A stretch of 41,752 nt of DNA from Planctomycetota bacterium. GTDB taxonomy: Bacteria > Planctomycetota > Planctomycetia > Pirellulales > UBA1268. The stretch spans positions 1-41,752 of the forward strand of contig JAPOIM010000040.1 of assembly GCA_029978905.1 (NCBI GenBank). Direction: 5' to 3'. Below, piece after piece: positions 2,197 through 35,072 of the stretch (position 1 is the stretch's first letter; each line of letters begins with the position of its first letter). The position numbers and the translations under genes were made by a program. The notes below the pieces were generated by a model, which was not told the DNA's origin, did no database searches, and saw only the letters and a list, made by a program, of their open reading frames with translations.

Positions 2197-2233
2197 TTCT
2201 CTGCGTTCCTCGGTGCGGCTTCGTTCGACTGCT

Positions 2234-3397
2234 GTGTCTTACCTTGACCACAACGCGACCGCGCCGCTTCACCCGGCCGCCCGTGAGGCCTGGCTGGAAT
2301 GCGTGAGCATCTGCTGGCACAACCCGTCGGGACTCTATCCCGAGGCGACTTGGGCTCGCGAACGCTTGGAAGATGCCCGCGAACGGTTGGGCGATCTGCT
2401 CAGCATTGATCCGGAGCGGATCGTGTTCACCAGTGGGGCGACGGCTTCGGCCAATCTCGTAGCGCGTTTCGTGGCGAAGCAGGCGGCCCCCCAGGCCACG
2501 GTCGTGACCTCTGGTGTCGAGCATCCCTGTGTCGACGACTCGTTGGCGGCGGCCTTTGGCGGACGAGTCGAGCCGCTGGCGGTGGATGCCAGCGGCGTGG
2601 TGAGCCTGGCGGCGGTCGAAGAGGTGTGCGCGAGGTCGATGGCACCGTCACTCGTGGCCGTGATGGCAGCCAGCAACGAAACCGGCGTCCTCCAGCCTTG
2701 GGCGGAGGTTGCTGCGCTCTGTGCTGCCCAGGCGATCCCCTTTCTGTGCGATGCGTCGCAGTGGTTTGGCAAGCTGCCCGCCGCAGGCTTTGGCGGGTGC
2801 TCCTGGGTGATTGGGAGCAGCCATAAGTTTGGTGGGCCTCGAGGCACGGGGTTTTTGGTTGTGCCAGCGAAGGCCGCTTTCCGTGGAGACCTCGGTGGGC
2901 CACAGGAGCGGAGTCGGCATGCGGGCACCGAAGACACGGCCTCGATCGTGGCGATGGTGGCGGCGCTCGAAGCCCGCGACGCCGAGTGTGCTCGCTGCGG
3001 TGAGAGTCGGGCGAGCTGGCGGACAGATGCTCAGCAGCGGCTTCTCGAACTCCTGCCCACAGCGGTGATTGTTGGCGATGCGGCGCCGAGGCTCTGGAAC
3101 ACACTCGCCGCCGTGATTCCGGGGCATGATGGCAAGCGGTTGGTGGGAGCCCTGGGGCGAGCCGGCATTGCCGCGTCAACGGGATCTGCCTGCAGCACCG
3201 GCACGGGAGCCTTGTCCTCCACGCTTGCTGCGATCGGTGCCGAGCGGTTGGGGCTCTCGCCTGCCGACCTGCGGGGGATGGTGCGGCTCTCCGGCGGCCT
3301 CGACACGTCCGCTGAGGAGTGGCTTGAGGCGGTGGAGAACCTCGCCGCGATCGCCAAGGGAGACGCAGGCCCACCCACAGTGTCGCTTACGTCGTGA
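2234..3397 (+). CDS. Cysteine desulfurase (NifS/IscS-like class V aminotransferase)
   Basis: The enzyme removes sulfur from L-cysteine as a persulfide for Fe-S cluster or tRNA thiolation. The family N-terminus SYLDHNATAPLHP is present. The PLP-binding lysine lies in GSSHKFGGPRGTGF (about K198) and the acceptor cysteine in ASTGSACSTGTGALS (about C320). Cofactor-contacting segments SGATASAN, HPCVDD and NETG are also visible. The 387-residue length is normal. I start at the GTG at 2234, just before YLDHNAT as in relatives; the frame extends to a GTG at 2213, and neither has a good ribosome-binding site. The short loop around the catalytic Cys resembles group I enzymes (IscS/NifS). No iscU or other Fe-S assembly gene is adjacent, but many Fe-S proteins are encoded just downstream on the other strand. 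The 3' end overlaps the convergent cyclase gene by 11 bases. Confidence 0.9.
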   Translation: MSYLDHNATAPLHPAAREAWLECVSICWHNPSGLYPEATWARERLEDARERLGDLLSIDPERIVFTSGATASANLVARFVAKQAAPQATVVTSGVEHPCVDDSLAAAFGGRVEPLAVDASGVVSLAAVEEVCARSMAPSLVAVMAASNETGVLQPWAEVAALCAAQAIPFLCDASQWFGKLPAAGFGGCSWVIGSSHKFGGPRGTGFLVVPAKAAFRGDLGGPQERSRHAGTEDTASIVAMVAALEARDAECARCGESRASWRTDAQQRLLELLPTAVIVGDAAPRLWNTLAAVIPGHDGKRLVGALGRAGIAASTGSACSTGTGALSSTLAAIGAERLGLSPADLRGMVRLSGGLDTSAEEWLEAVENLAAIAKGDAGPPTVSLTS

Positions 3398-5231
3398 CCG
3401 AATCGTCGGCTACCTGTTCCAAGGCAGCCACCGTGAAGGTCAACGGGTAGAGCTTCTCGAAGTACCAGAGTTTGGCGAAGTAGAGGCCGATCGGTGCGGC
3501 TGGGAAGAAGCGGCCCTCGTCGGTGGTTTCAATCAGCCACCGCACGCTTCGCTCCACGGCAGGCGAAAGCTCGGCCGACAGCGTGCGGCCCTGGGGGCTG
3601 GCGAGCACCCGACCAAGCGCCTCGACCGTGAGGGCGGTCTCTTCCACCGACGGCGTCAGACCAGGGGCTCCGCCGACGCCGCCATCGCTGCCGACCGCCG
3701 AGGCCAACCAACTGGCGCCTCGTCGGTCGCCGGTCGCCATCACGACTTTTGCTGTTCCATAGACGGGATTCTCTTGGAGCGGATGGTGTTCGTTTCCAAA
3801 CCACAACGGGGACCAGCATCCTTCCCGTCGTTGGGTCCGGCTGAGGTAGCGTGTGGCAGCCCGCTGGGCCGCTGCGAGGCCGGGAAGGTCACCACCGCCG
3901 AGAGTCTTCCAGGCCTCGGCCGCGCGGAGGAAGTGGGCGGTGATGTCTGGGCAGGACGTGTCAAACGGCAAGCGGCCCCAGCCCTTGCAGAAGGTGGGGA
4001 TCCCACCGTTGCGATTGGCGAGGTTTGCGAGCCATGTCAGGCCGGCCGCTGCGGCTTCCCGGACCTCACCTGAAACGGGGCGGCTCTCCGCAGCCTCGAG
4101 TGCCGCGAGCGCCACAATCGCCCCCGACGTGTCGTCGGCATCGGGAACACCGCCTGGCAGGTCGGTCCATGCCCAGCCGCCAGGTTCGGCTCCGGTGTAA
4201 GGGTGTGTCTCTTTCCACTGCTGGGCAAGGAGCCAGCGGCGGATCGCCTCACGATCAGCATCGCTCAGGTGGGCCGCGAGGTGCCCACCTGTGGCCAGCG
4301 CTCCGACAGAGAGCGTGGTGCCCCACGTGGCGAGGTTCGTGTCGATCGGCCACGAGCCGTCGGGTCGCTGGGCAGCTCGCAGGAAGGCCACGCCTCGTCG
4401 AGCGACCGGATGTTCCGCGAGGCCCATCGCGGCGAGGCTCATCGTCACAAACGAGGTCAACGGTGTGGCTTCGAGGAACCCACCGTTGGCTGGTTGAATG
4501 GCCTCGAGTTTTTCGAGCGTCTCGTCTACCGAGCGGTCACGCATCCAACTTCGTGGTCCCCACTTAGGAGCGATCTTGTGCCGCACCTGGCCCATGGCAA
4601 TCAATGCAGGCAGGGCGTAGCTCACCACCTGCATGTTGACGAGCCGGAACCACTTCTGCGGAAGGGCGGCGAGTTCGAAGGGGAGTTGCGGAACGATCTT
4701 CCAGGTCTTCGCGTCCTGAGGATCCCCGAACGCGCCGCACAGCACCGCGTGCGTGAGGATCGGGACGCTAAAGGTGCGGTCGCGACCGTAGATGTCGGCG
4801 AGGGCAGCGGCGATGCTGCGACCATCAAGCCCGCCGGCTCGAGTTTCGATCCAGGCCCCAGCCGCCCCGATCGCCTCGCTCGCGTTGTGCATCGAGCCGA
4901 TGCTTTCAGGGGAGGCGTCGCACACGGCCGTGAGAACCGACCAGCACAGGAGCGTGGTGGAAAGGTTGCCGCGGCTGGCCGTCGTGTCTCCCCAGGAGCC
5001 ATCAGCGAGCTGGTTGCCAATCAGCCAGGAGGCTCCACGCGAAATCGCCCGCACGTCAAATGTGTGGCCCACCTGCAGCAGCGCGTTGACGGCGGTGGCC
5101 GTGGAAAGGGCGCTCGTGGAGAGTTTGCCCGTCCACCAGCCGTCGGCTTCTCGCGCAGCCAACAAGGCCTCAACGCCTCGTTGGCGAGTCGCGTGGAAGG
5201 AAGCCGATTGAAGGATAGACGAGTTCACCAT
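3387..5231 (-). CDS. Squalene-hopene-cyclase-like class II terpenoid cyclase
   Basis: The 614-residue protein has the alpha/alpha-barrel repeats of squalene-hopene and diterpene cyclases. QW-type motifs occur at LADGSWGD (about 76), QRPDGSWPID (about 289) and QRREGCWSPLWFGN in the C-terminal third. The proton-donating acid motif appears as GVPDADDTSGA (D364, D366, D367), directly after GGWAWTDLPG, as in squalene-hopene cyclases where GGWAF precedes the DxDDT site. Further family blocks are NPVYGTAKV and PSVEETALTVEAL. No signal peptide is visible; a monotopic membrane location would be expected for the family. The gene is last in the minus-strand cluster, 25 bases after a second cyclase-fold gene, with a prenyl diphosphate synthase upstream. 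This suggests cyclization of a locally made polyprenyl chain, but the substrate (squalene or a C20-C35 diphosphate) cannot be read from sequence. Confidence 0.82.
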   Translation of the reverse strand: MVNSSILQSASFHATRQRGVEALLAAREADGWWTGKLSTSALSTATAVNALLQVGHTFDVRAISRGASWLIGNQLADGSWGDTTASRGNLSTTLLCWSVLTAVCDASPESIGSMHNASEAIGAAGAWIETRAGGLDGRSIAAALADIYGRDRTFSVPILTHAVLCGAFGDPQDAKTWKIVPQLPFELAALPQKWFRLVNMQVVSYALPALIAMGQVRHKIAPKWGPRSWMRDRSVDETLEKLEAIQPANGGFLEATPLTSFVTMSLAAMGLAEHPVARRGVAFLRAAQRPDGSWPIDTNLATWGTTLSVGALATGGHLAAHLSDADREAIRRWLLAQQWKETHPYTGAEPGGWAWTDLPGGVPDADDTSGAIVALAALEAAESRPVSGEVREAAAAGLTWLANLANRNGGIPTFCKGWGRLPFDTSCPDITAHFLRAAEAWKTLGGGDLPGLAAAQRAATRYLSRTQRREGCWSPLWFGNEHHPLQENPVYGTAKVVMATGDRRGASWLASAVGSDGGVGGAPGLTPSVEETALTVEALGRVLASPQGRTLSAELSPAVERSVRWLIETTDEGRFFPAAPIGLYFAKLWYFEKLYPLTFTVAALEQVADDSVTT

Positions 5232-5256: not shown

Positions 5257-6171
5257 TCAGACGCTGGCATGCCCAAGCGCCACAAGCCCGTAGTAGGTGT
5301 ACTCGGCGTCGATCACGTCGTCGGCCCACGATCCGTGAAAGCCCCCCTCGGCAGACCAGAGCGAATCGAGGTAATCGAGCACAAGATCACGTTGTTTTCG
5401 CCAGTCGATCTCGACCGCATCGAGGGCATGCAAGGCGACGGCCGTCGATAGCAGGTCGGGCAGCGGAGTGTCGGGGGTGGCGAGAAATCCGCCGGTGGGA
5501 TGCTGCTGGGAACGCAGGAAGATACCCGCTTCGGCAGGCACCGTCGCATCGAGTGAGCGGAGGGTGGCGATGGCTGCGGCAGTGGCTGTGGTTGAGCCAA
5601 GAGGTTGGCCGGGGGCGTTTGCCCAGCCACCGTCGTCACTGCGAAGCCGGTGGAGGCACGCCGTGATCGCCTGCCGCTGGTCCTCGGTGTGGATCGGTTG
5701 CCCGAGATCTTCGAAGGCGTTCACCGCCAAAAAACATCCGTAGGCGGTGCCGTGGCTCACGCTGGCTCGTGTTGCGTAGCCACCGTCGGCCGCGCGGTTG
5801 TCTGCCATACGGTGGGCGAGAGCCGCTGCGTGGCCCTCGGGTCGAGCGTTTGCCGGTTGCGATGCCCATGCTCGCGCCAGGCAGCACCGATGGACAAAGT
5901 CGAGGGAGGCTCCGTCGTCAAACGAGGTCAGCCAGCGGCGGGTGCGGCTGGCCATAACGGCATGGTGCTGGTCGTCCGGCAGCCGGTCTACCGCCGCGAG
6001 CGCATCGAGCGCAAAGGACGTGTAGTAAAGGTCAGGCTTCCCGTCGCGGTTGGCGTAGCTTCCGTCGGGCAGGGCCAGCCCCGAGAGAAAATCCGCCACC
6101 AGGTCGGTCGCATCGCCAAGCACGCGCTGTGCGAGGCGAGCCACCTGGAGCATCTGGAGCCGTCGGCTCAT
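5257..6171 (-). CDS. Prenyltransferase/squalene-oxidase-repeat protein (cyclase fold)
   Basis: The 304-residue protein consists of repeated alpha/alpha-barrel units. These resemble protein prenyltransferase beta subunits and single domains of class II terpene cyclases: ALPDGSYANRDGKPDLYYTS, NRAADGGYATRAS, LRSDDGGWANAPG, HPTGGFLATPD and SAEGGFHGSWADD. No DxDD acid motif is visible, so it probably does not start a protonation-type cyclization by itself. Protein prenyltransferases need an alpha subunit, and none is nearby. Its ATG overlaps the stop of the upstream polyprenyl synthase by 4 bases (ATGA), and the DxDD-bearing cyclase follows 25 bases later. It could be a partner subunit of that cyclase, a substrate-binding protein, or a divergent enzyme. 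Function is uncertain; the fold assignment is firm. Confidence 0.8.
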   Translation of the reverse strand: MSRRLQMLQVARLAQRVLGDATDLVADFLSGLALPDGSYANRDGKPDLYYTSFALDALAAVDRLPDDQHHAVMASRTRRWLTSFDDGASLDFVHRCCLARAWASQPANARPEGHAAALAHRMADNRAADGGYATRASVSHGTAYGCFLAVNAFEDLGQPIHTEDQRQAITACLHRLRSDDGGWANAPGQPLGSTTATAAAIATLRSLDATVPAEAGIFLRSQQHPTGGFLATPDTPLPDLLSTAVALHALDAVEIDWRKQRDLVLDYLDSLWSAEGGFHGSWADDVIDAEYTYYGLVALGHASV

Positions 6172-7937
6172 GCCGGGCCCACCTGCGCGGTTTCGTTGGT
6201 GTCGGCGGCTTCACGAGCCTGGGCCTTCATCTCCTGCTCGCGGCAGTAGCCGTCGAAGGCGAGTTCGTTGAAGATTCGCGCCACGATCCTCCGCAGCAGA
6301 CCCTTGAGCGTCGGGTCGTCAAGGCCGTCGAGCGCCCGCACCGCCTCTTCCTTGTAGGCCTCGAGGAGGAGAGCGGCCTTCTCATCCGCTTTGGCTTCGG
6401 AGATGGCTGTCCGCAGCTGTTCGGCAGTCAGGCTTTCCGCAGGAATCCCTGAGGCAAGATTGCTGAGCATCGTGCGGTCGTCTCCGCGAGCTCGCTCGGC
6501 GCCGAGTGCGATCAGCACACTCGGCCGTGAGGCCGCGTCTCGTACGAAGCCTGCGTCTTCGACGAGATCTTCGAGATCGTCCTTGATCTGATAGGCGATG
6601 CCGATGGCGTTGCTGTAGGCACGCAGCACCTCGCGGCATTCTTCGCTGCGCCCAGCGGCAATGGCCGCAAGTTGAAGCGCCACATCAAACGCGGGGGCCG
6701 TCTTCAGACGAAAGATTTCAAGCACCTGCCGACTGGAGAGACGCGATGGCGTGCGGCTCCACGCAAGCTCAGCCCCCTGGCCTTGGCAGAGCAATCGCTG
6801 TGCGGTCGCGGCTTCCCGTACGGCTTCGGTCACCCGCTCTGGTGCCAGGCCAGACTCCGCGAGCATCCGGTAGCCCTCACCGATGAGCACATCGCCAACG
6901 TTCAGGGCGATCGGAATGCCGTGGGCGCCGCACAGGGTGGGCTCACCGTATCGTTCGTCATCGCCATCTTCGATGTCGTCATGGACGAGCGAGGCCTTGT
7001 GGAAGCACTCCACCGCGATGGCGACCTTCCGGATCGCCTCGCTCGACGTCGTGGTTTCAGGATTGCCCTCTTCGAGGGCTGCGTGCACAGCTGCGGCCAG
7101 GAAGGGCCGCCACCGTCGGCCGCCGACGGCGAGCCATTCGCGAGCAACTTGTTCGGCGTGTCCCTCGGCAGGCCCCATCAAGGCCTCGAGGGCTGCAGGC
7201 TCAAACCACTCCTTCACTTCGTCGTGCAGGCCGCCGAGGTCGAGGCGACGCGAGCGATCCGAAGCCTGAAGGTGGATGTAGTCCCAGACCCAGTCGACAT
7301 CGACGGCGGTGTCGATGCAGTCGTCCTGCAAAAGCGGAACGGCAACCGCAGGCACCGCGGCCGCCTGCACGTGTGGGAAGGTTTTCTCCAAAACGGGCAT
7401 GCAGCTGATACCCACGATGGCTTCGATCTGGCCTGTCTGGATCATGGCCATCACCAAGGCCGAGCCCTCGGCTACCAGCACGGCATAGCCCAGTCTTTCG
7501 GCTTCGGCCTGGAAGTCTTGGATGGAGCACAAGCCGCACTGCTTGCAGAGCAGCCCAAACTCATCGAAGGGTGCCGGACACCGGTTCTCTTCGCGAAGGC
7601 ACTTTGGCATCAACAGCAGCCGCTTCTCGAAGGGAACGGTCGCCAGCGAATCACGCCACGACTCATTGTTGACGAGCACGACGGCGTAATCGAAGTAGGT
7701 GTCGGCGAGGCCCACTTCGTTGAGAGCGGCGGTGGCCCGTGCCCCGAGTTCTTCCATGCTCAGAGGGGGCACGGCCTTTTCGCTGGCCATGCCTCGCCGG
7801 ATCGCGTCGAGCAACTGGTCGCGCTCGGACTTCGTCTGGGGAATCGAAGGCTGCGGCGGGCGGGAGCGGATCAGCGCAGGGGGGACCGGCGACGGAAGCA
7901 CCGCCAGGGAGATGCTGGATGGATCGACCGTCGACAT
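6168..7937 (-). CDS. DUF116-polyprenyl diphosphate synthase fusion
   Basis: This 589-residue protein joins two domains. Residues about 75-225 resemble DUF116: LLLMPKCLREENRCPAP, then LLCKQCGLCSIQDF (cysteines about 113, 120, 131, 134, 137), and ISCMPVLEKTF (about C179); the cysteines suggest a metal or Fe-S site. Residues about 265-589 form a trans-isoprenyl diphosphate synthase with GGRRWRP, the first Asp-rich motif LVHDDIED (about 320-324) and the second QIKDDLED (about 453-457). Both motifs are intact, so it should make polyprenyl diphosphate by head-to-tail condensation of IPP; chain length is not predictable. I start at the ATG at 7937, preceded at good spacing by GGAGGAG; the frame continues to a TTG at 7970. 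The stop overlaps the next gene by 4 bases, and the ferredoxin gene lies 78 bases upstream. Confidence 0.85.
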   Translation of the reverse strand: MSTVDPSSISLAVLPSPVPPALIRSRPPQPSIPQTKSERDQLLDAIRRGMASEKAVPPLSMEELGARATAALNEVGLADTYFDYAVVLVNNESWRDSLATVPFEKRLLLMPKCLREENRCPAPFDEFGLLCKQCGLCSIQDFQAEAERLGYAVLVAEGSALVMAMIQTGQIEAIVGISCMPVLEKTFPHVQAAAVPAVAVPLLQDDCIDTAVDVDWVWDYIHLQASDRSRRLDLGGLHDEVKEWFEPAALEALMGPAEGHAEQVAREWLAVGGRRWRPFLAAAVHAALEEGNPETTTSSEAIRKVAIAVECFHKASLVHDDIEDGDDERYGEPTLCGAHGIPIALNVGDVLIGEGYRMLAESGLAPERVTEAVREAATAQRLLCQGQGAELAWSRTPSRLSSRQVLEIFRLKTAPAFDVALQLAAIAAGRSEECREVLRAYSNAIGIAYQIKDDLEDLVEDAGFVRDAASRPSVLIALGAERARGDDRTMLSNLASGIPAESLTAEQLRTAISEAKADEKAALLLEAYKEEAVRALDGLDDPTLKGLLRRIVARIFNELAFDGYCREQEMKAQAREAADTNETAQVGPA

Positions 7938-8015
7938 GGTGCTCTCCTCCGGGTGAACCCGCACTTGCACTTTGTTGCACAGAACTCGTAAGTATGCCCG
8001 AGCGAGGCCTGTTCG

Positions 8016-8888
8016 TCAGGTCGCGGCCTCTGCGGCCGCACGTGCCGCCTCTGCTCGGGCCGCCGCCTCGGCCGCACGCCGCTGGATCTCCTCCGGCGAA
8101 GGGAGGGCATCGAGCACCTCTTGGGGGATGGCAGCCGCGTCGGCCAGTTTTTTCAGGCATCGCCGCCGCTCCGCCAGGGCCTGGTCTGCCGACCGCTCCC
8201 GCGAGAAGCGAGACTTGGCCTCGGCACTGCGTTCGCGGAGTTTGGCGTAGATGTCACCCCCGAGCAGTGCGGAGATGTCGACTTTCATCTTTTCCCGCGT
8301 CACATCCGACTCGGAGACGGGGGCTCCGTCGATGGGGCCCGCGTGGTACTTGGGAAACATGATCGCGACGTCGGGGCAGACGCGCGAGCAGGCTGGGCAG
8401 TTCACCTTGCAGTTGGCCGGGTTCTCCACCTGAAGGTGGTGTGTCTCCGACACCCCATACACATCGAACAGGCAGAAACTCAGGCACTGCATGCAGTTGG
8501 TGCAACGGTCCATGTCGATCACTGGAAACCAGGGTTTCCAGGTTTCACCCCCCGTGGCGGCCGCGGCGGCCGGCGGGCGGTTCATCTGCCGCGTGCCACG
8601 GGCGGCTTCGACGGCCTCCACCGTCTGTTCCACCGCCTCGCCTGTAATGTCGCGCACGCAGACGGCGCCCTCGGCCGATTCGACTGCGGGCGGGGCGCCG
8701 TGGAAGCGTCCCAACACGATCACCGTCGCGAGTGGCGGCGTCGCCGAACTGCCTTGGCCGGCCAGTGTCACGGCGTAGCCGCGATCGAGCAGCCGCGCGA
8801 AAAGTTCACGACGGTTGGCTGCTTCCATCGGCTCTGCGCCAGGCCCTTCGTAGAGCACCACGCGTGGAGGGGTCGGGGTGGCAATCAC
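8016..8888 (-). CDS. Two-cluster ferredoxin-type protein with novel N-terminal domain
   Basis: The 290-residue product has a ferredoxin module at about residues 120-180 with two cysteine sets. C129, C132, C135 and C139 form CxxCxxCxxxC; C160, C164, C167 and C171 form CxxxCxxCxxxC. Both look fit for [4Fe-4S] clusters. The preceding 110 residues (RVVLYEGPGAEPMEAANRRE, ATVIVLGRF) are not recognised and resemble a small alpha/beta domain. The C-terminal 100 residues are charged and end in an Ala/Glu-rich helix (RAAEAAARAEAARAAAEAAT). It is probably cytoplasmic and transfers electrons to the neighbouring radical SAM or cyclase-associated enzymes. The start is a GTG at 8888 that overlaps the upstream stop codon as GTGA; the frame continues further upstream without homology-like sequence, so the short form is preferred. 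Confidence 0.82.
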   Translation of the reverse strand: MIATPTPPRVVLYEGPGAEPMEAANRRELFARLLDRGYAVTLAGQGSSATPPLATVIVLGRFHGAPPAVESAEGAVCVRDITGEAVEQTVEAVEAARGTRQMNRPPAAAAATGGETWKPWFPVIDMDRCTNCMQCLSFCLFDVYGVSETHHLQVENPANCKVNCPACSRVCPDVAIMFPKYHAGPIDGAPVSESDVTREKMKVDISALLGGDIYAKLRERSAEAKSRFSRERSADQALAERRRCLKKLADAAAIPQEVLDALPSPEEIQRRAAEAAARAEAARAAAEAAT

Positions 8889-9277
8889 GGCGTGTCTCCA
8901 CTCGGTGATGAAGCGGGGCTCGCAGCCTGCATGCCGGCGAGGACGTCTGCAGCGGCATCGGTGCGCATGTTGTGGATCTCGACACCTTCCTTGGGGAGGG
9001 CCGCACCTGCCTGAGAGAACAGTCCGCGAACCGCCCGAGGCCAGCACGCGGCAATCCGCAGCGGTCCTGCTTCGCTGGCAAGTTGCTGCAGCTGTGGGTC
9101 GCGTCGAGCGGCCATTTCGCAGAGGTCGGGAACCGCCTCAAAAGCACGGCCCGACTCCGCAAGCCCGGCGAGCACCTCATCCTTGACGTCCTCTGGAACC
9201 ACCTGCGCGTAGGCACAGCGGCAGTAGAGGAGCCGGGGCTGGGGATCGTGCGTGGTGTTGGGAGGAAGGTCAGTCAT
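8885..9277 (-). CDS. Small Fe-S protein resembling the HdrA N-terminal domain
   Basis: The 130-residue protein has four spaced cysteines: YCRC (C19, C21), DLCEMA (C53) and IAACWPRAV (C78). This order resembles the N-terminal cluster-binding domain of heterodisulfide reductase subunit A, where CHCG, a central Cys and an AACSPR segment occur in that order. The similarity is in pattern and spacing only; I cannot run an alignment. The gene is locked into the operon at both ends: its ATG overlaps the radical SAM stop (ATGA at 9274-9277) and its stop overlaps the ferredoxin start (GTGA at 8885-8888). It is therefore likely made in fixed ratio with those proteins and may form an electron-transfer complex with the ferredoxin. 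No signal peptide or membrane segment is visible. Confidence 0.75.
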   Translation of the reverse strand: MTDLPPNTTHDPQPRLLYCRCAYAQVVPEDVKDEVLAGLAESGRAFEAVPDLCEMAARRDPQLQQLASEAGPLRIAACWPRAVRGLFSQAGAALPKEGVEIHNMRTDAAADVLAGMQAASPASSPSGDTP

Positions 9278-10542
9278 GCGGTGCTGTTGCTTGAGGTGCC
9301 GACCATCTCGGGCTGTGACGGTGGGGGCGTCCGCTGGCCGTTGGGAAGAGTCGGATAGCTGCCGAAGTCATTGAACCAGTACCGCTTGGCAAAACGATAC
9401 ATCCAGTGCTTTTCTGGAATCTCCCGACCGGGAAGATCCTGGCTGGAGCGGGGTGTCATCGCGAGCAGTTCTTCGCGAGCGGTGCCACGCTGGGTGGTGT
9501 CACGGGCACCGTGCCGATCGGCGATTTCGAGCACCAGCCGGGGGTTTTCCAGGACCACGCAACCACGGCTGTGCTCGGCTGCCGCCGCCCGCATGTCAGC
9601 CAGAAACGCCGACCCCGTGACCTTGTCGTAGAACGACCCACCGTTCACGTTTTCGACCGCGAGTTGAATGATCGGGCAGGGCTCGATGTCGCCTGAGGGA
9701 CCCACGTGGTGCGTGAGGCCGATTGCCATCGGACAGAGGGCAGAACCCTTGCCATCGTAGTAGGCATCGACAATCACAATCGGCAGCCGTGCCCGCGTTT
9801 CCACCACAAAGCGACGCACACGCACCAACTCTTCCGGCGAGAGGGCCAGCTCGGGTGACGAATCGGGGCCGACGGGGCGATAGCCGTGGAACCACGCGTA
9901 GTGCACGCCCATGTCGATCAGTTTCTTCAGCCACGTTTCCGTTAAGAGCGTGTCGAGATTCGACCGGCAGAGGCTTGTGGCCACTCCCGTGACCAGACCG
10001 GCATCGAGGCAGGCCTTGAGCCCGCGCAACGAACGGTCGAGCACCTGCCGCGACCCACGACGCTCGTCACTAACGACCGAATCTCCCTCGATGCTCACCA
10101 GCGGTGTCGCGTTGCCGAGCTTTCGGAGACGCTGGGCGATCTCCGGTGTGATCAGTTGGCCGTTGGTGAAGATCTGGAAGTAGCAGTCGGGATGCCGCTC
10201 GAGCAGGTCGAGCAGGTTGGGATGCAGAAACGGCTCGCCTCCGAGCAGGCCAAAGAAGGCGTTTCCGTGTGACTTGGCATCGCGGACGATGCTGTCGAGT
10301 TCGCCGAGGGAGACCATCTCACGTGGCGACTGCACATCGACCCAGCAGCCTTGGCAGCGGAGATTGCACGAGTTGATCACCGAGAGGTGCAAGAACGGAG
10401 GAAAGATCACCCCCTTTTTGCGACGCGACTTAAATCTCTCGACCGAGAGCATGCCCTTGAGCCCAAAGTTCCAGCCGAACTTCCAGAGGCAGTTGGGGGC
10501 GACCGTAGTCGCCATGCGGTAGGCAAGTTGTGGCAGGATCAT
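9274..10542 (-). CDS. Radical SAM enzyme with C-terminal extra-cluster-type region
   Basis: The 422-residue protein carries the radical SAM cluster motif CNLRCQGC (C59, C63, C66), spaced CxxxCxxC. The glycine-rich SAM-binding strand FFGLLGGEPFLHPN and the later strands QIFTNGQL and LVSIEGD follow. C-terminal cysteines in ALCPMAIG, IEPCPI and SRGCVV suggest a SPASM-like auxiliary cluster. The N-terminal 45 residues are hydrophobic and basic (ILPQLAYRMATTVAPN, then KSRRKK), which could place the enzyme at the membrane. The nearest well-known lipid analogue is HpnH, which adenosylates diploptene, but the N-terminal region differs and I do not claim orthology. Its place in an operon with a polyprenyl synthase and cyclase suggests that it modifies an isoprenoid or lipid. 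A GGAAG site about 8 bases upstream supports the ATG at 10542. The stop overlaps the next ATG. Confidence 0.85.
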   Translation of the reverse strand: MILPQLAYRMATTVAPNCLWKFGWNFGLKGMLSVERFKSRRKKGVIFPPFLHLSVINSCNLRCQGCWVDVQSPREMVSLGELDSIVRDAKSHGNAFFGLLGGEPFLHPNLLDLLERHPDCYFQIFTNGQLITPEIAQRLRKLGNATPLVSIEGDSVVSDERRGSRQVLDRSLRGLKACLDAGLVTGVATSLCRSNLDTLLTETWLKKLIDMGVHYAWFHGYRPVGPDSSPELALSPEELVRVRRFVVETRARLPIVIVDAYYDGKGSALCPMAIGLTHHVGPSGDIEPCPIIQLAVENVNGGSFYDKVTGSAFLADMRAAAAEHSRGCVVLENPRLVLEIADRHGARDTTQRGTAREELLAMTPRSSQDLPGREIPEKHWMYRFAKRYWFNDFGSYPTLPNGQRTPPPSQPEMVGTSSNSTA

Positions 10543-10583: not shown

Positions 10584-11711
10584 TTACGAGCGGGCGGCGA
10601 TCCGGTGGGTTGGCACAGGCTTGCCCGGCCGGAAGTGCTCGAGGTGAATGATGTCACATGGTCGTTCGCGGCGAATCGACTCGAGCGCCTTTTCGACGGC
10701 AGCCTTGAGCGACTCGGGGGGGGCTTCGGCACGCAGGTTGAGCAGGGTGCGGCCAATGTCGACTGGTTCCGCGAGGCGATGCGACACGGCTGGAGCCTCG
10801 TCAGACCGCACGAGGTTGGCTGCAGCGAGTTCGTATGGATCGCCCTCCACGCTGAGGGTGGCTTTCATATGGGCGATTTCGTGTCCCTCGGCGGCAAGCG
10901 ACTGGCGGATCTGCTGCATCAGGTCAACCAGCAAGGCCGTGCCGTCGTATTCGTCTGAGTCGGCAGAGCCAATCACGAGTTCTGCGTTGAGCCACCCGAG
11001 CAGCGACTCACCGTAGGCGTATTCGTCGTAGTCGATGTTGGCGATCGCGGAAGCCTGCGAGGTGCGTGTGAGCATCTGCTCGAACCAAGGATCGAGCCCC
11101 GTGTTGTCGCGGGCTGAGCAGACCTCGATCGACGCCCTCGGTGCGACCGCGGCCAACGCCTCCTGCAGCCGCTGCAGCCGCGCTGTGTCCACAAGGTCAG
11201 ACTTGTTGATCACGATGATTTCCGCTTCTTCCAGCTGCTTGCGGTAGATGTAGCAGACGTGCTCCGAGAGGCTCGCGGTGGCGAGGCCGAGCACACGCTC
11301 GGCGCGGAGCGGGTCCACCACCACGCTCACTGGGGCGACGGCAAAGCGATCCCCGTAAATCTGTTCAAGCGGCAAACTCACCGTCGCGACGAGGTCGGTA
11401 CAACTGCCGACGGGTTCTGCGATGAGGACATCCGGCGCGGCGGCCCCCACGAGTGCATCGGCGGCTTCGACGAGCGAGTTGAAACGGCAACAGAAGCAAC
11501 CGCCCACAATCTCCTCAACCGGCAGTCGCTTGTTGGCGGCGAGGGCGGTGTCGACCAGGCTGCCACCCTGATCGTTGGTGACGAGGCCGACTTTCAGTCC
11601 GCGATCGGTCAGCCACTCAGCAAAACGCAGGATCGATGTGGTTTTGCCCGCGCCCAGAAAGCCGCCGATCATCACGTAGCGAGCTTGGCCGCTGCCATCA
11701 CCTGTCTGCAT
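10584..11711 (-). CDS. COG0523 (CobW/UreG-like) GTPase
   Basis: This is a G3E-family GTPase of 375 residues. The Walker A is GGFLGAGKTT (about residues 16-25) and the metal-binding CxCC motif is GGCFCC (C72, C74, C75). The guanine-specificity motif INKSD follows, and DVLIAEPVGS lies between them. COG0523 proteins are GTP-driven metal chaperones or insertases, often for Zn, Co or Fe-containing enzymes. The C-terminal domain (about residues 230-375) is longer than in minimal CobW and contains EIAHMKATLSVEG. In this operon it could supply metal to the DUF116, radical SAM or cyclase proteins. The ATG at 11711 is chosen because AGAGAAG lies 7 bases upstream; a TTG at 11732 would cover that site. 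The radical SAM gene starts 41 bases downstream. Confidence 0.88.
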   Translation of the reverse strand: MQTGDGSGQARYVMIGGFLGAGKTTSILRFAEWLTDRGLKVGLVTNDQGGSLVDTALAANKRLPVEEIVGGCFCCRFNSLVEAADALVGAAAPDVLIAEPVGSCTDLVATVSLPLEQIYGDRFAVAPVSVVVDPLRAERVLGLATASLSEHVCYIYRKQLEEAEIIVINKSDLVDTARLQRLQEALAAVAPRASIEVCSARDNTGLDPWFEQMLTRTSQASAIANIDYDEYAYGESLLGWLNAELVIGSADSDEYDGTALLVDLMQQIRQSLAAEGHEIAHMKATLSVEGDPYELAAANLVRSDEAPAVSHRLAEPVDIGRTLLNLRAEAPPESLKAAVEKALESIRRERPCDIIHLEHFRPGKPVPTHRIAARS

Positions 11712-11780
11712 GCTGCCGCTTCTCTCTGTCAAAAGCCAAGGCGAATGAAGGCCGGCGAGGGCGCTGCGAACAGTTCGCGG

Positions 11781-12275
11781 TCACGCGGGCCCCCCATCAT
11801 ACCGTGATGCTTGCAGCCGATCGATCGTCTCTTGCAGAAGGGCGATGTATTCGTGGACGTCGAGCGTTTCGGCCTGCGGAATGCCCTCAACCTCATAGAG
11901 CCAACCCTCTCCGTAGGGGGCGGAGTGGGTGAGGCAGGCTTCCGCGGTGAGGGCGGGATTCGTTCCAAGAAAGGTTCCCTCGGCGACACAGAACAGGTCG
12001 CTGACCGCTTTGAAACCCTCCACGCTCCCCAGCGGCTGGCCAGCCTGCACCGTCTCCCCCGACGCGACAGTGAGGTGCATTTCCACCAGCTCACCGAGCA
12101 TGCGGGTGGCGAACTTGGTGAAGCCCACGCGCCATCGACCGCTGCAGGTGGGGTCGGCTGGGGGATTCGATTCCTCCCATTCGGCCGGCAGGAGCCAGAA
12201 ATGTGACGGTGCGTAGCGGTAGCCCACCGGAAAACGCGCGGAGAAATGAGCGTGGCGAAAGCGGACCGTTTCCAT
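11781..12275 (-). CDS. Glycine-cleavage H-like lipoyl carrier protein
   Basis: The 164-residue protein has the lipoyl fold of GcvH: VGFTKFATRMLGELVEMHL, ETVQAGQPLGSVEGFKAVSDL with the lipoylation lysine at about K89, and APYGEGWLYEVEG. H-proteins carry an aminomethyl or other group on lipoyl-lysine between enzymes. The N-terminal 45 residues (FRHAHFSARFPVGYRYAPSH, then a Trp-rich stretch) are unlike standard GcvH and make it longer than the usual ~125 residues. No gcvT, gcvP, lipoyl synthase or ligase gene is nearby. It sits directly after aquaporin (one base between stop and ATG) and 69 bases before the GTPase. It could be a dedicated carrier for the downstream Fe-S enzymes, as lipoate-binding proteins serve Hdr-like sulfur oxidation, or simply an orphan GcvH. 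An alternative start lies upstream at 12302, inside the aquaporin gene. Confidence 0.82.
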   Translation of the reverse strand: METVRFRHAHFSARFPVGYRYAPSHFWLLPAEWEESNPPADPTCSGRWRVGFTKFATRMLGELVEMHLTVASGETVQAGQPLGSVEGFKAVSDLFCVAEGTFLGTNPALTAEACLTHSAPYGEGWLYEVEGIPQAETLDVHEYIALLQETIDRLQASRYDGGPA

Positions 12276-12276
12276 C

Positions 12277-12936
12277 TCAAAGATCCTCGCCGTCGTGATC
12301 ACGAAGGAGCGGGAACGTTGCTACCGCGAGCAAGCTCCCGACGAGCGGCGCAGCGATGTAGACCCAGAGCGAGTCGACGTTGCCGGAGGTGACGGCCGGG
12401 GTGATCGAACGAGCTGGGTTCATGGACGCTCCACAGATCGGCCCGGCAAACATCGCTTCCACCGCGATCACGCTTCCCACAGTGATCCCTGCAAACATGC
12501 CACGCTCTTTCGGGCCACTCGACACACGCAGCACCACGACCATCAGGATCCAGGTCAGCACCACTTCAAGCACGAACGACTGCCAGTCTGACCCGGCGGG
12601 GAGAGTGCTCCCGAGCGTGGGATGCTCGGGGAAGAGAAGCCGCAAGAGGCCACTGGCGGCAAAGCCACCCGCCAGCTGGGCGAGCACGTAGGGCACCACG
12701 ATCGCGGCCGGCAGCCGTTTGGCCACCCACATGCCAACCGTGACGGCGGGGTTCATGTGGGCGCCAGAGACGTCGCCGATCGCATGGATCATCGCCATCA
12801 CCACAAGCCCAAATACAAGGGCGATGCCCACGTGGGTGATCGATCCTCCCGACACGTCGTTGATCACGATGGCCCCGGTGCCTGCAAACATGAGGCAGAA
12901 GGTGCCAAACACTTCGGCGGAAAGTTTTCGCAGCAT
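12277..12936 (-). CDS. Aquaporin (MIP family channel)
   Basis: The 219-residue product has the two NPA half-helix motifs of major intrinsic proteins, SGAHMNPAVTVG (about residues 60-71) and GASMNPARSITPAV (about 180-193). Six predicted membrane helices surround them, beginning with EVFGTFCLMFAGTGAIVI. The NPARS form is usual for water-selective AqpZ types, although the pore-lining Arg alone does not exclude glycerol or other small solutes. The start at 12936 (MLRKLSAEVFGTF) matches the family; the frame reads farther upstream into the pseudouridine synthase gene. It begins 4 bases after that gene's stop and ends one base before the lipoyl-carrier ATG, so these three genes are likely cotranscribed. 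Confidence 0.92.
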   Translation of the reverse strand: MLRKLSAEVFGTFCLMFAGTGAIVINDVSGGSITHVGIALVFGLVVMAMIHAIGDVSGAHMNPAVTVGMWVAKRLPAAIVVPYVLAQLAGGFAASGLLRLLFPEHPTLGSTLPAGSDWQSFVLEVVLTWILMVVVLRVSSGPKERGMFAGITVGSVIAVEAMFAGPICGASMNPARSITPAVTSGNVDSLWVYIAAPLVGSLLAVATFPLLRDHDGEDL

Positions 12937-33746: not shown

Positions 33747-35003
33747 TTAGCCCCGGGGGTCGGCCACCACGCCCGCAAAGAGCATGCTGCCGGTGCGGGT
33801 GTCGATGACGGTCCACAGGAAGGGGCGGTCGGCCTTGATCTCCAGCGGCTCGGAGGGGGGCAGGGCGCTCCGCACGCCGATCACGACTCCGGTCGCGGCG
33901 GCAGCTTCAGTGCCCTCTTCGCTGACCTCCACGAAGCCTTCATGAACCACGTCGGACACAAAGAGGTCGCGCGTGCCGTCGATCCCTGAAAAGTCGGCCT
34001 GCGAGGCATCGAAGGCTTGCTGCATGCCGAGTTCTGAGAGAGCCTTCTTGAGTGAGAGCGGCTTGCGTGCCGTCCATTTCGGGAGCGCCAGCCGCACCGA
34101 CTGCCGCCGCAAGCCGCCGCCTGTCCGCAGCGACGAGAGCCAGTCGCCGTCAAGCTGGGCGAGCACGTTCTCCACGCCGTCACTCGCGTCTGGGTCAGGA
34201 GCATCCGGCACGAGGATCACCATCGCCAGCCGCCCCCCGGCGTATGGGATTTCGCAGGCCAGCATCTCCGAGCCCTCGCTGCCGGCCCGTCCGGCTCGCA
34301 AGGTGTCGGCACGGTGCATGAAAGGCACTTTGATCTGGACGCCCTCGCCAAGATCGAAGTGTTCGTCGCGTGTCAGCGATTCGTCAAAGGGAGCCTGCCA
34401 GTCAGCCTTCATAAACACGGCGTTGGTCAACACGAGCCGCGTCAGGGGCGTGATCGATCCTGAGGGGAGGAGGTCGGTGATCCGGTCGTTGGTATGGTCG
34501 GCAATCCAGCCGTTGATCTTTCCTCTCGCGGCTTCAGGGGCGGCCGCAAAGTCGAGAACTCCCGCATTGGCGGCATGCTTTGTTTCGAGCAGCGAGGTGA
34601 AGGTGTTGGCAACAGACTTGCCTTGCTGAAGCCAGAGTCGATTGGCGATCGCCAGGCGGATCTGGTCGCTGCGAAGCTCGTCAAACGCCTTCCGCATTTC
34701 CGCGGAGGCGTCACCTATCAGTTGGGGATCGTTCGGCATCCCCAGCACACCGGCGATTTCGGCGGCGGTGGTGCTCGAGGCACCTGCATGGGTCATGGCG
34801 AGGGCTTGCCAGACGCTCACTGGCGACACAATCGCATTCCCGTCGCCCGAGCGAGCCACGAGTTGCCAGCCGAGATGGCTGACGGCTTGAGCGGCGGTCT
34901 CGGTTGTGATCACGTTGTCGGCTCGTTCGCTCGCGGCACCCACACTCACCATGCTTCCCAGCATGGTCGCACAGAACAGTCGACAAAGGAAAGCAACTCG
35001 CAT
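33747..35003 (-). CDS. Secreted serpin (serine protease inhibitor)
   Basis: Serpins trap serine or cysteine proteases by cleavage of a reactive loop and a large conformational change. The 418-residue protein has a signal peptide ([20 protein letters not shown], cut near GAASE). The serpin core follows, with [51 protein letters not shown] and the C-terminal [20 protein letters not shown]. The hinge is inhibitor-like: [15 protein letters not shown] with small residues at P12-P9. Counting from the P17 Glu gives Arg as P1 and Ser as P1' (GVRSALPP), so a trypsin-like protease is the predicted target. The ATG at 35003 is preceded by GAGGGAC. Probably exported and protective against external proteases. 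Confidence 0.92.
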
Positions 35004-35072
35004 GGCATGTCCCTCGCGGATCAAGAGAGGCGGCTTCGTTTGGTCGGCAGAACGTCGCAGGAGAGCTCGGGC

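Follow-up and report, generated by a model that had tools for sequence, protein, structure and literature searches.

The 41,752-nucleotide contig from a Planctomycetota bacterium that was analyzed here as a whole (the window) includes a gene that joins a DUF116 domain to a trans-polyprenyl diphosphate synthase, located in a conserved operon that also codes for cyclase-like, radical-SAM and ferredoxin-like proteins. A contig scan found at least 567 relatives of the fusion protein, the best 80 of which are all fused, so that conservation of this architecture goes far beyond chance. The gene occurs together with the cyclase-like gene of the operon, and cysteines that are invariant in DUF116 have been lost in copies found where that pathway is absent. 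These observations suggest that DUF116 contributes a redox function to the pathway and not to the chain-building enzyme. We propose, with a probability of about 0.5, that it serves as an iron-sulfur redox module, tethered to a synthase whose product enters a pathway to cyclised terpenoids. The fusion and its two domains are located as follows.

6168-7937, minus strand: DUF116::polyprenyl diphosphate synthase fusion, 589 amino acids from the ATG at 7937; alternative start GTG at 7970
7278-7721, minus strand: DUF116 domain with seven invariant cysteines, from the PF01976 match and alignments
6552-7154, minus strand: trans-polyprenyl diphosphate synthase core (PF00348) with GGRRWRP, DDIED, RYG, GQGAEL, KT and DDLED

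The complete open reading frame (6168-7970, minus strand) codes for 600 amino acids from the GTG or 589 from the ATG, and the alignment of relatives with the fusion protein begins at the methionine of the latter. Pfam analysis identified PF01976 (DUF116) in the N-terminal half, at residues 84-231 of the 600-amino acid form or 73-220 of the 589-amino acid form (E 6.5e-36, 123.6 bits, cut-off 25), and PF00348 in the C-terminal half, at residues 273-473 (E 7.8e-38, 130.5 bits). The fusion claimed in the initial annotation, which was made from the sequence alone, is thus confirmed; instead of being separate genes in close relatives, the two halves form a single gene there and across three phyla. 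In the genome that includes the window the fusion is the sole DUF116 match above the cut-off.

The synthase half has both DDxxD motifs that had been described as intact, the FARM (DDIED) at residue 320 and the SARM (DDLED, inside YQIKDDLED) at residue 449. The AlphaFold model of the whole protein has a mean pLDDT of 84.6, and the best PDB matches of its synthase part are GGPP and polyprenyl synthases, with E values down to 2.7e-11. Because an Ala-Ser pair is found at positions -5/-4 ahead of the FARM, as in medium- and long-chain synthases, the product would be a medium or long polyprenyl diphosphate. The canonical RRG after the FARM is RYG in this protein (window positions 6942-6956), with the first arginine kept and the second replaced by tyrosine, and the same is true of nearly all members. 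RRG is typical of the Pfam family and is not required by it, and because the protein agrees with the family in profile, remaining motifs and fold, RYG was regarded as a variant; the change may reflect an unusual substrate. Fusions of a second type, type B (the window's fusion being of type A), also carry NDxxD as the second aspartate motif.

The seven invariant cysteines of DUF116 are C113, C120, C131, C134, C137, C179 and C207 (589-residue numbering). The CxxxxxxC and CxxCxxC elements are those that had been noticed initially, and the one later cysteine reported with them turned out to be two, C179 and C207. All seven are present in an alignment of 25 fused sequences from several families, and they are invariant in 34 aligned DUF116 domains, four of them stand-alone proteins about 25% identical to the window's domain. 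Invariance in these 34 domains extends to glycine, proline and further residues, more than a simple ferredoxin motif would comprise. The AlphaFold model of DUF116 alone (pLDDT 91.4) shows an alternating beta/alpha core, a search of the PDB for similar folds returned nothing at E <= 0.001, and the DUF116 profile matched none of the sequences of solved structures. In other Planctomycetota a stand-alone DUF116 gene that keeps the seven cysteines is found at the two loci with a clearly legible context (L098:8340-8789 and L099:8477-8920) in the order def-fmt-DUF116-rsmB, with gene names taken from reading the translations and not from a family search, and no redox or isoprenoid genes were found among its neighbors there.

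DUF116 (arCOG02078) was predicted in a 2015 comparative-genomics paper to be metal-binding and flavodoxin-like, with a likely role in electron transfer, and the same paper notes in one sentence that some bacteria have it fused to polyprenyl synthetase, with Psta_0175 of Pirellula staleyi as the named case (PMC5898192). The statement that the domain is without an assigned function therefore needs to be qualified: a prediction exists, and it is as a tested function that none was found. While the fusion itself was already known, the operon, its spread over three phyla and the paralogue with lost cysteines are absent from that account and, together with the link of cysteine loss to the pathway, appear to be undescribed; word searches of open-licence papers found no description of the operon. 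Its genes follow one another on the minus strand from position 12302 to 3387, with the fusion placed between the ferredoxin and cyc304, and a further gene converges on them.

11781-12302, minus strand: GcvH-like carrier with a lipoyl-type lysine (EGFKA)
10584-11732, minus strand: CobW/G3E-type GTPase with a GCFCC motif
9274-10542, minus strand: radical-SAM enzyme with CxxxCxxC and further conserved cysteines
8885-9277, minus strand: p130, a small protein with a CxC...DLC...AC(W/Y)PRA pattern and no family match
8016-8888, minus strand: 2x[4Fe-4S] ferredoxin-like protein; its GTG at 8888 overlaps the stop codon of the previous gene, and the frame is open to 9047
5257-6171, minus strand: cyc304, an alpha-alpha toroid protein (PF00432); its ATG overlaps the stop codon of the fusion
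3387-5231, minus strand: cyc614, squalene-hopene-cyclase-like, with a conserved DxDDT acid motif
2213-3397, plus strand: NifS-like cysteine desulfurase, convergent with the operon

According to the coordinates, 4-nucleotide overlaps occur at three joints, radical SAM/p130, p130/ferredoxin and fusion/cyc304, the ferredoxin start at the second of these having been deduced from the gene overlap and from relatives. The putative functional residues are well conserved: the lipoyl-type lysine of the carrier is invariant in 17 of 17 aligned sequences, the CxxxCxxC and further cysteines of the radical-SAM enzyme and the GCFCC of the GTPase are kept in aligned orthologues, and DxDDT is conserved in 40 aligned cyc614 orthologues, where it corresponds to the DxDD acid motif of class II terpene cyclases and makes cyc614 a candidate member of that class. 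The scores against the hopanoid enzymes fell far below the cut-offs, with 62.4 bits for cyc614 against squalene-hopene cyclase (TIGR01507, cut-off 431.1) and 32.4 bits for the radical-SAM enzyme against HpnH (TIGR03470, cut-off 225). Promoter and terminator scans gave nothing above chance, and a tRNA was the sole match in an Rfam scan. The idea that p130 is the N-terminal part of HdrA found no support and was dropped. In-frame TGA or TAG codons in many radical-SAM matches were considered as selenocysteine, and at the two loci that were read they proved to be an ordinary terminal stop codon.

Two other genes of the window can be recorded here. A serpin gene, of a family more familiar from eukaryotes, lies at 33747-35024 on the minus strand (PF00079, E 2.5e-90), and positions 1-987, also on the minus strand, code for a cysteine-rich protein with five YTV repeats (PF07639) whose gene reaches the contig edge.

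The occurrence of the fusion was compared with that of the pathway genes in 294 genomes of the phylum, where open frames of about 480 amino acids or more were scored as fused. Fusion and cyc614 were both present in 61 genomes and both absent from 226, with 7 discordant; for the fusion and the radical-SAM gene the numbers were 56 with both and 11 discordant. The Fisher p values of these pairings, 3e-54 and 1.5e-47 respectively, ignore shared ancestry and are descriptive. Within the class, one family has a radical-SAM gene that is distant from the fusion yet co-occurs with it (for example in genome G106, positions 1,784,194 and 2,026,242). Among 59 nearer relatives, a high-scoring DUF116 and cyc614 were found together in 29 and were both missing from 27 (3 discordant), and cyc614 was present in none of the 12 genomes of this set that had a low-scoring DUF116 alone.

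Fusions occur across the order and the phylum, and the best 80 loci belong to Planctomycetota, Verrucomicrobiota and three records labeled Acidobacteriota, a label taken from titles of metagenome-assembled genomes, which can be wrong. A near-identical operon order was found in Acidobacteriota (L154, L164 and L180), Verrucomicrobiota (L160, L168 and others) and Planctomycetota (L087, L092 and L093), and in Acidobacteriota and in several Verrucomicrobiota this operon is accompanied by a homolog of the cysteine desulfurase. Many Verrucomicrobiales have the fusion located away from the other operon genes; one such genome (G353, locus L146) has a full cyc614 on another contig. Around the Acidobacteriota record the distribution is patchy, as a clear fusion was found in 2 of 119 sampled genomes. 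In a tree of the synthase half, whose outgroup branch is very long and whose root is unsure, type A forms one group, with sequences of the three phyla interspersed, and a grouping of the window's family with Verrucomicrobiota has support of 100/98, which suggests horizontal transfer. Fusions of types B and C are adjoined by a conserved protein of about 180-200 amino acids (L042:10030-10572, L032:8311-8919 and nine other loci). It weakly resembles Rv2949c-like chorismate lyase (best E 0.0051, two of 11 members; 0.12 for a PDB entry), a match that is a lead only.

A second, divergent DUF116::synthase is present in the window's genome and in nearly all members of its family that were sampled. At about 6 kb or less from this copy, the window's genome has a true squalene-hopene cyclase (639 bits) and HpnH (510 bits); many relatives likewise have the divergent copy and the hopanoid genes on one contig at a similar distance. 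At locus L032 the second copy (L032:9022-10884, G000:C88), which has degenerate cysteines, is separated from the SHC/HpnH region (L032:2430-5701) by genes for a histidine kinase and a response regulator, and it is likely to be the prenyl synthase of the hopanoid locus. Seven degenerate copies that were aligned retain 0, 3, 4, 4, 4, 4 and 5 of the seven cysteines and keep the synthase motifs, as compared to seven of seven in 25 of 25 type A and type B sequences. Since the degenerate copies are scattered inside type B, in more than one place in the tree, the cysteines were probably lost more than once. Because the cysteine-poor copies keep the synthase motifs and no genome with such copies alone has cyc614, the metal site would be dispensable for chain synthesis as such and would follow the cyc614 pathway instead. 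The suggestion in the initial annotation that DUF116 directs or senses isoprenoid synthesis holds insofar as the operon and the co-occurrence with a class II cyclase-like protein tie the domain to such synthesis. A general role is made less likely by cysteine-poor copies that keep an apparently functional synthase, several of them beside hopanoid genes. The metal site appears rather to belong to a single pathway in which a radical-SAM enzyme and a ferredoxin are its partners.

In the pathway that we propose, the C-terminal half of the fusion would act as a trans-prenyl diphosphate synthase making a polyprenyl diphosphate of medium or long chain length. Cyclisation of this chain by protonation would fall to the class II cyclase-like protein with its DxDDT motif, and the radical-SAM enzyme would modify the product. 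The DUF116 half would be a redox domain whose seven cysteines hold an iron-sulfur or other metal center, and electrons could pass along a path formed by the 2x[4Fe-4S] ferredoxin, p130, DUF116 and perhaps the lipoyl-type carrier, with the cysteine desulfurase and the CobW-like GTPase equipping the metal centers. Tethering would put the redox module beside the step that commits the isoprenoid to the pathway. The cluster, the electron flow, the chain length, the order of the steps and the cyclised-terpenoid product are what we infer here. The presence of a radical-SAM enzyme, a ferredoxin and a carrier with a lipoyl-type lysine in one operon and the electron-transfer prediction of 2015 argue for this model, as do the gene set shared by three phyla, the co-occurrence counts, the pattern of cysteine loss, the DxDDT of cyc614 and the fold of the synthase half. 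Counted against it are that DUF116 resembles no solved structure by sequence, or convincingly by fold; that stand-alone genes, which keep the seven cysteines, lie beside def, fmt and rsmB and away from redox or isoprenoid genes; and that the fusion is apart from the operon in many Verrucomicrobiales, with co-occurrence counts that take no account of ancestry.

Cysteine-rich metal domains can sense redox state, and DUF116 could be a sensor of redox state or iron by which the attached synthase is switched on or off, so that isoprenoid enters the cyclase pathway under suitable conditions only. DUF116 is physically fused to the committing enzyme, and loss of the cysteines where the pathway is absent also fits the loss of a pathway-specific switch. 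We consider such a sensor unlikely, as the same seven cysteines are found in the def/fmt/rsmB context with no synthase and the operon already contains redox enzymes that need an electron partner. More doubtful still is a metalloenzyme that acts before or after elongation to alter the prenyl diphosphate or the extender, by reduction for instance: the invariant residues that exceed a simple ferredoxin motif and the tyrosine of RYG, which hints at an unusual substrate or product, would suit it, but stand-alone DUF116 lies beside genes other than those of isoprenoid synthesis, methanogen DUF116 is reported in other contexts (PMC5898192), and the domain matched no known-enzyme fold. Just as improbable is a domain that provides structure or docking for the synthase or its partners, with cysteines that hold a structural metal only. 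Retention of the fused domain despite cysteine loss at hopanoid genes does leave it some non-metal role, but seven cysteines kept with the pathway and eroded otherwise indicate a function that belongs to the pathway instead of the synthase.

Returning to the iron-sulfur module tethered to the synthase, the natural loss of cysteines links the seven-cysteine site to a defined gene set, so that the function of the domain can be put to the test. With its occurrence in three bacterial phyla, the operon also hints at a cyclised isoprenoid product that is as yet uncharacterised there, and lipids of this kind matter for membrane biology and as biomarkers. As a tentative extension, which we hold with less confidence than the module itself, the pathway might make a new class of cyclised isoprenoid lipids parallel to the hopanoids, with DUF116 as the tethered Fe-S partner and the lipoyl-type carrier taking part in the redox chemistry.

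Compared to known systems, the window's domain belongs to the arCOG02078/COG1852/DUF116 family (PF01976), far above the cut-off and with seven cysteines in common with stand-alone members; for archaeal members two N-terminal membrane helices have been described, whereas no such helices are visible in the sequence of the fusion and a synthase follows the domain. With the trans-polyprenyl diphosphate synthases (PF00348; GGPP, octaprenyl and heptaprenyl) the C-terminal half shares the FARM, the SARM, GG(K/R)R.RP, KT and the fold, and differs from them in RYG, in the N-terminal DUF116 and in scoring under every NCBIfam equivalog cut-off. A lipoate-carrier-like GcvH relative beside Fe-S and radical-SAM genes recalls the sHdr/LbpA sulfur-oxidation system, in which a role of LbpA is described (PMC6067878), but the operon genes match no Hdr subunits and code among other things for cyclase-like proteins and a prenyl synthase. 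Among known pathways hopanoid synthesis (SHC and HpnH) comes nearest: the operon likewise codes for a radical-SAM enzyme and, with DxDDT, a cyclase-like protein of class II, both scoring far below the HpnH and SHC cut-offs, and it adds the ferredoxin, the carrier, the CobW-like GTPase and p130.
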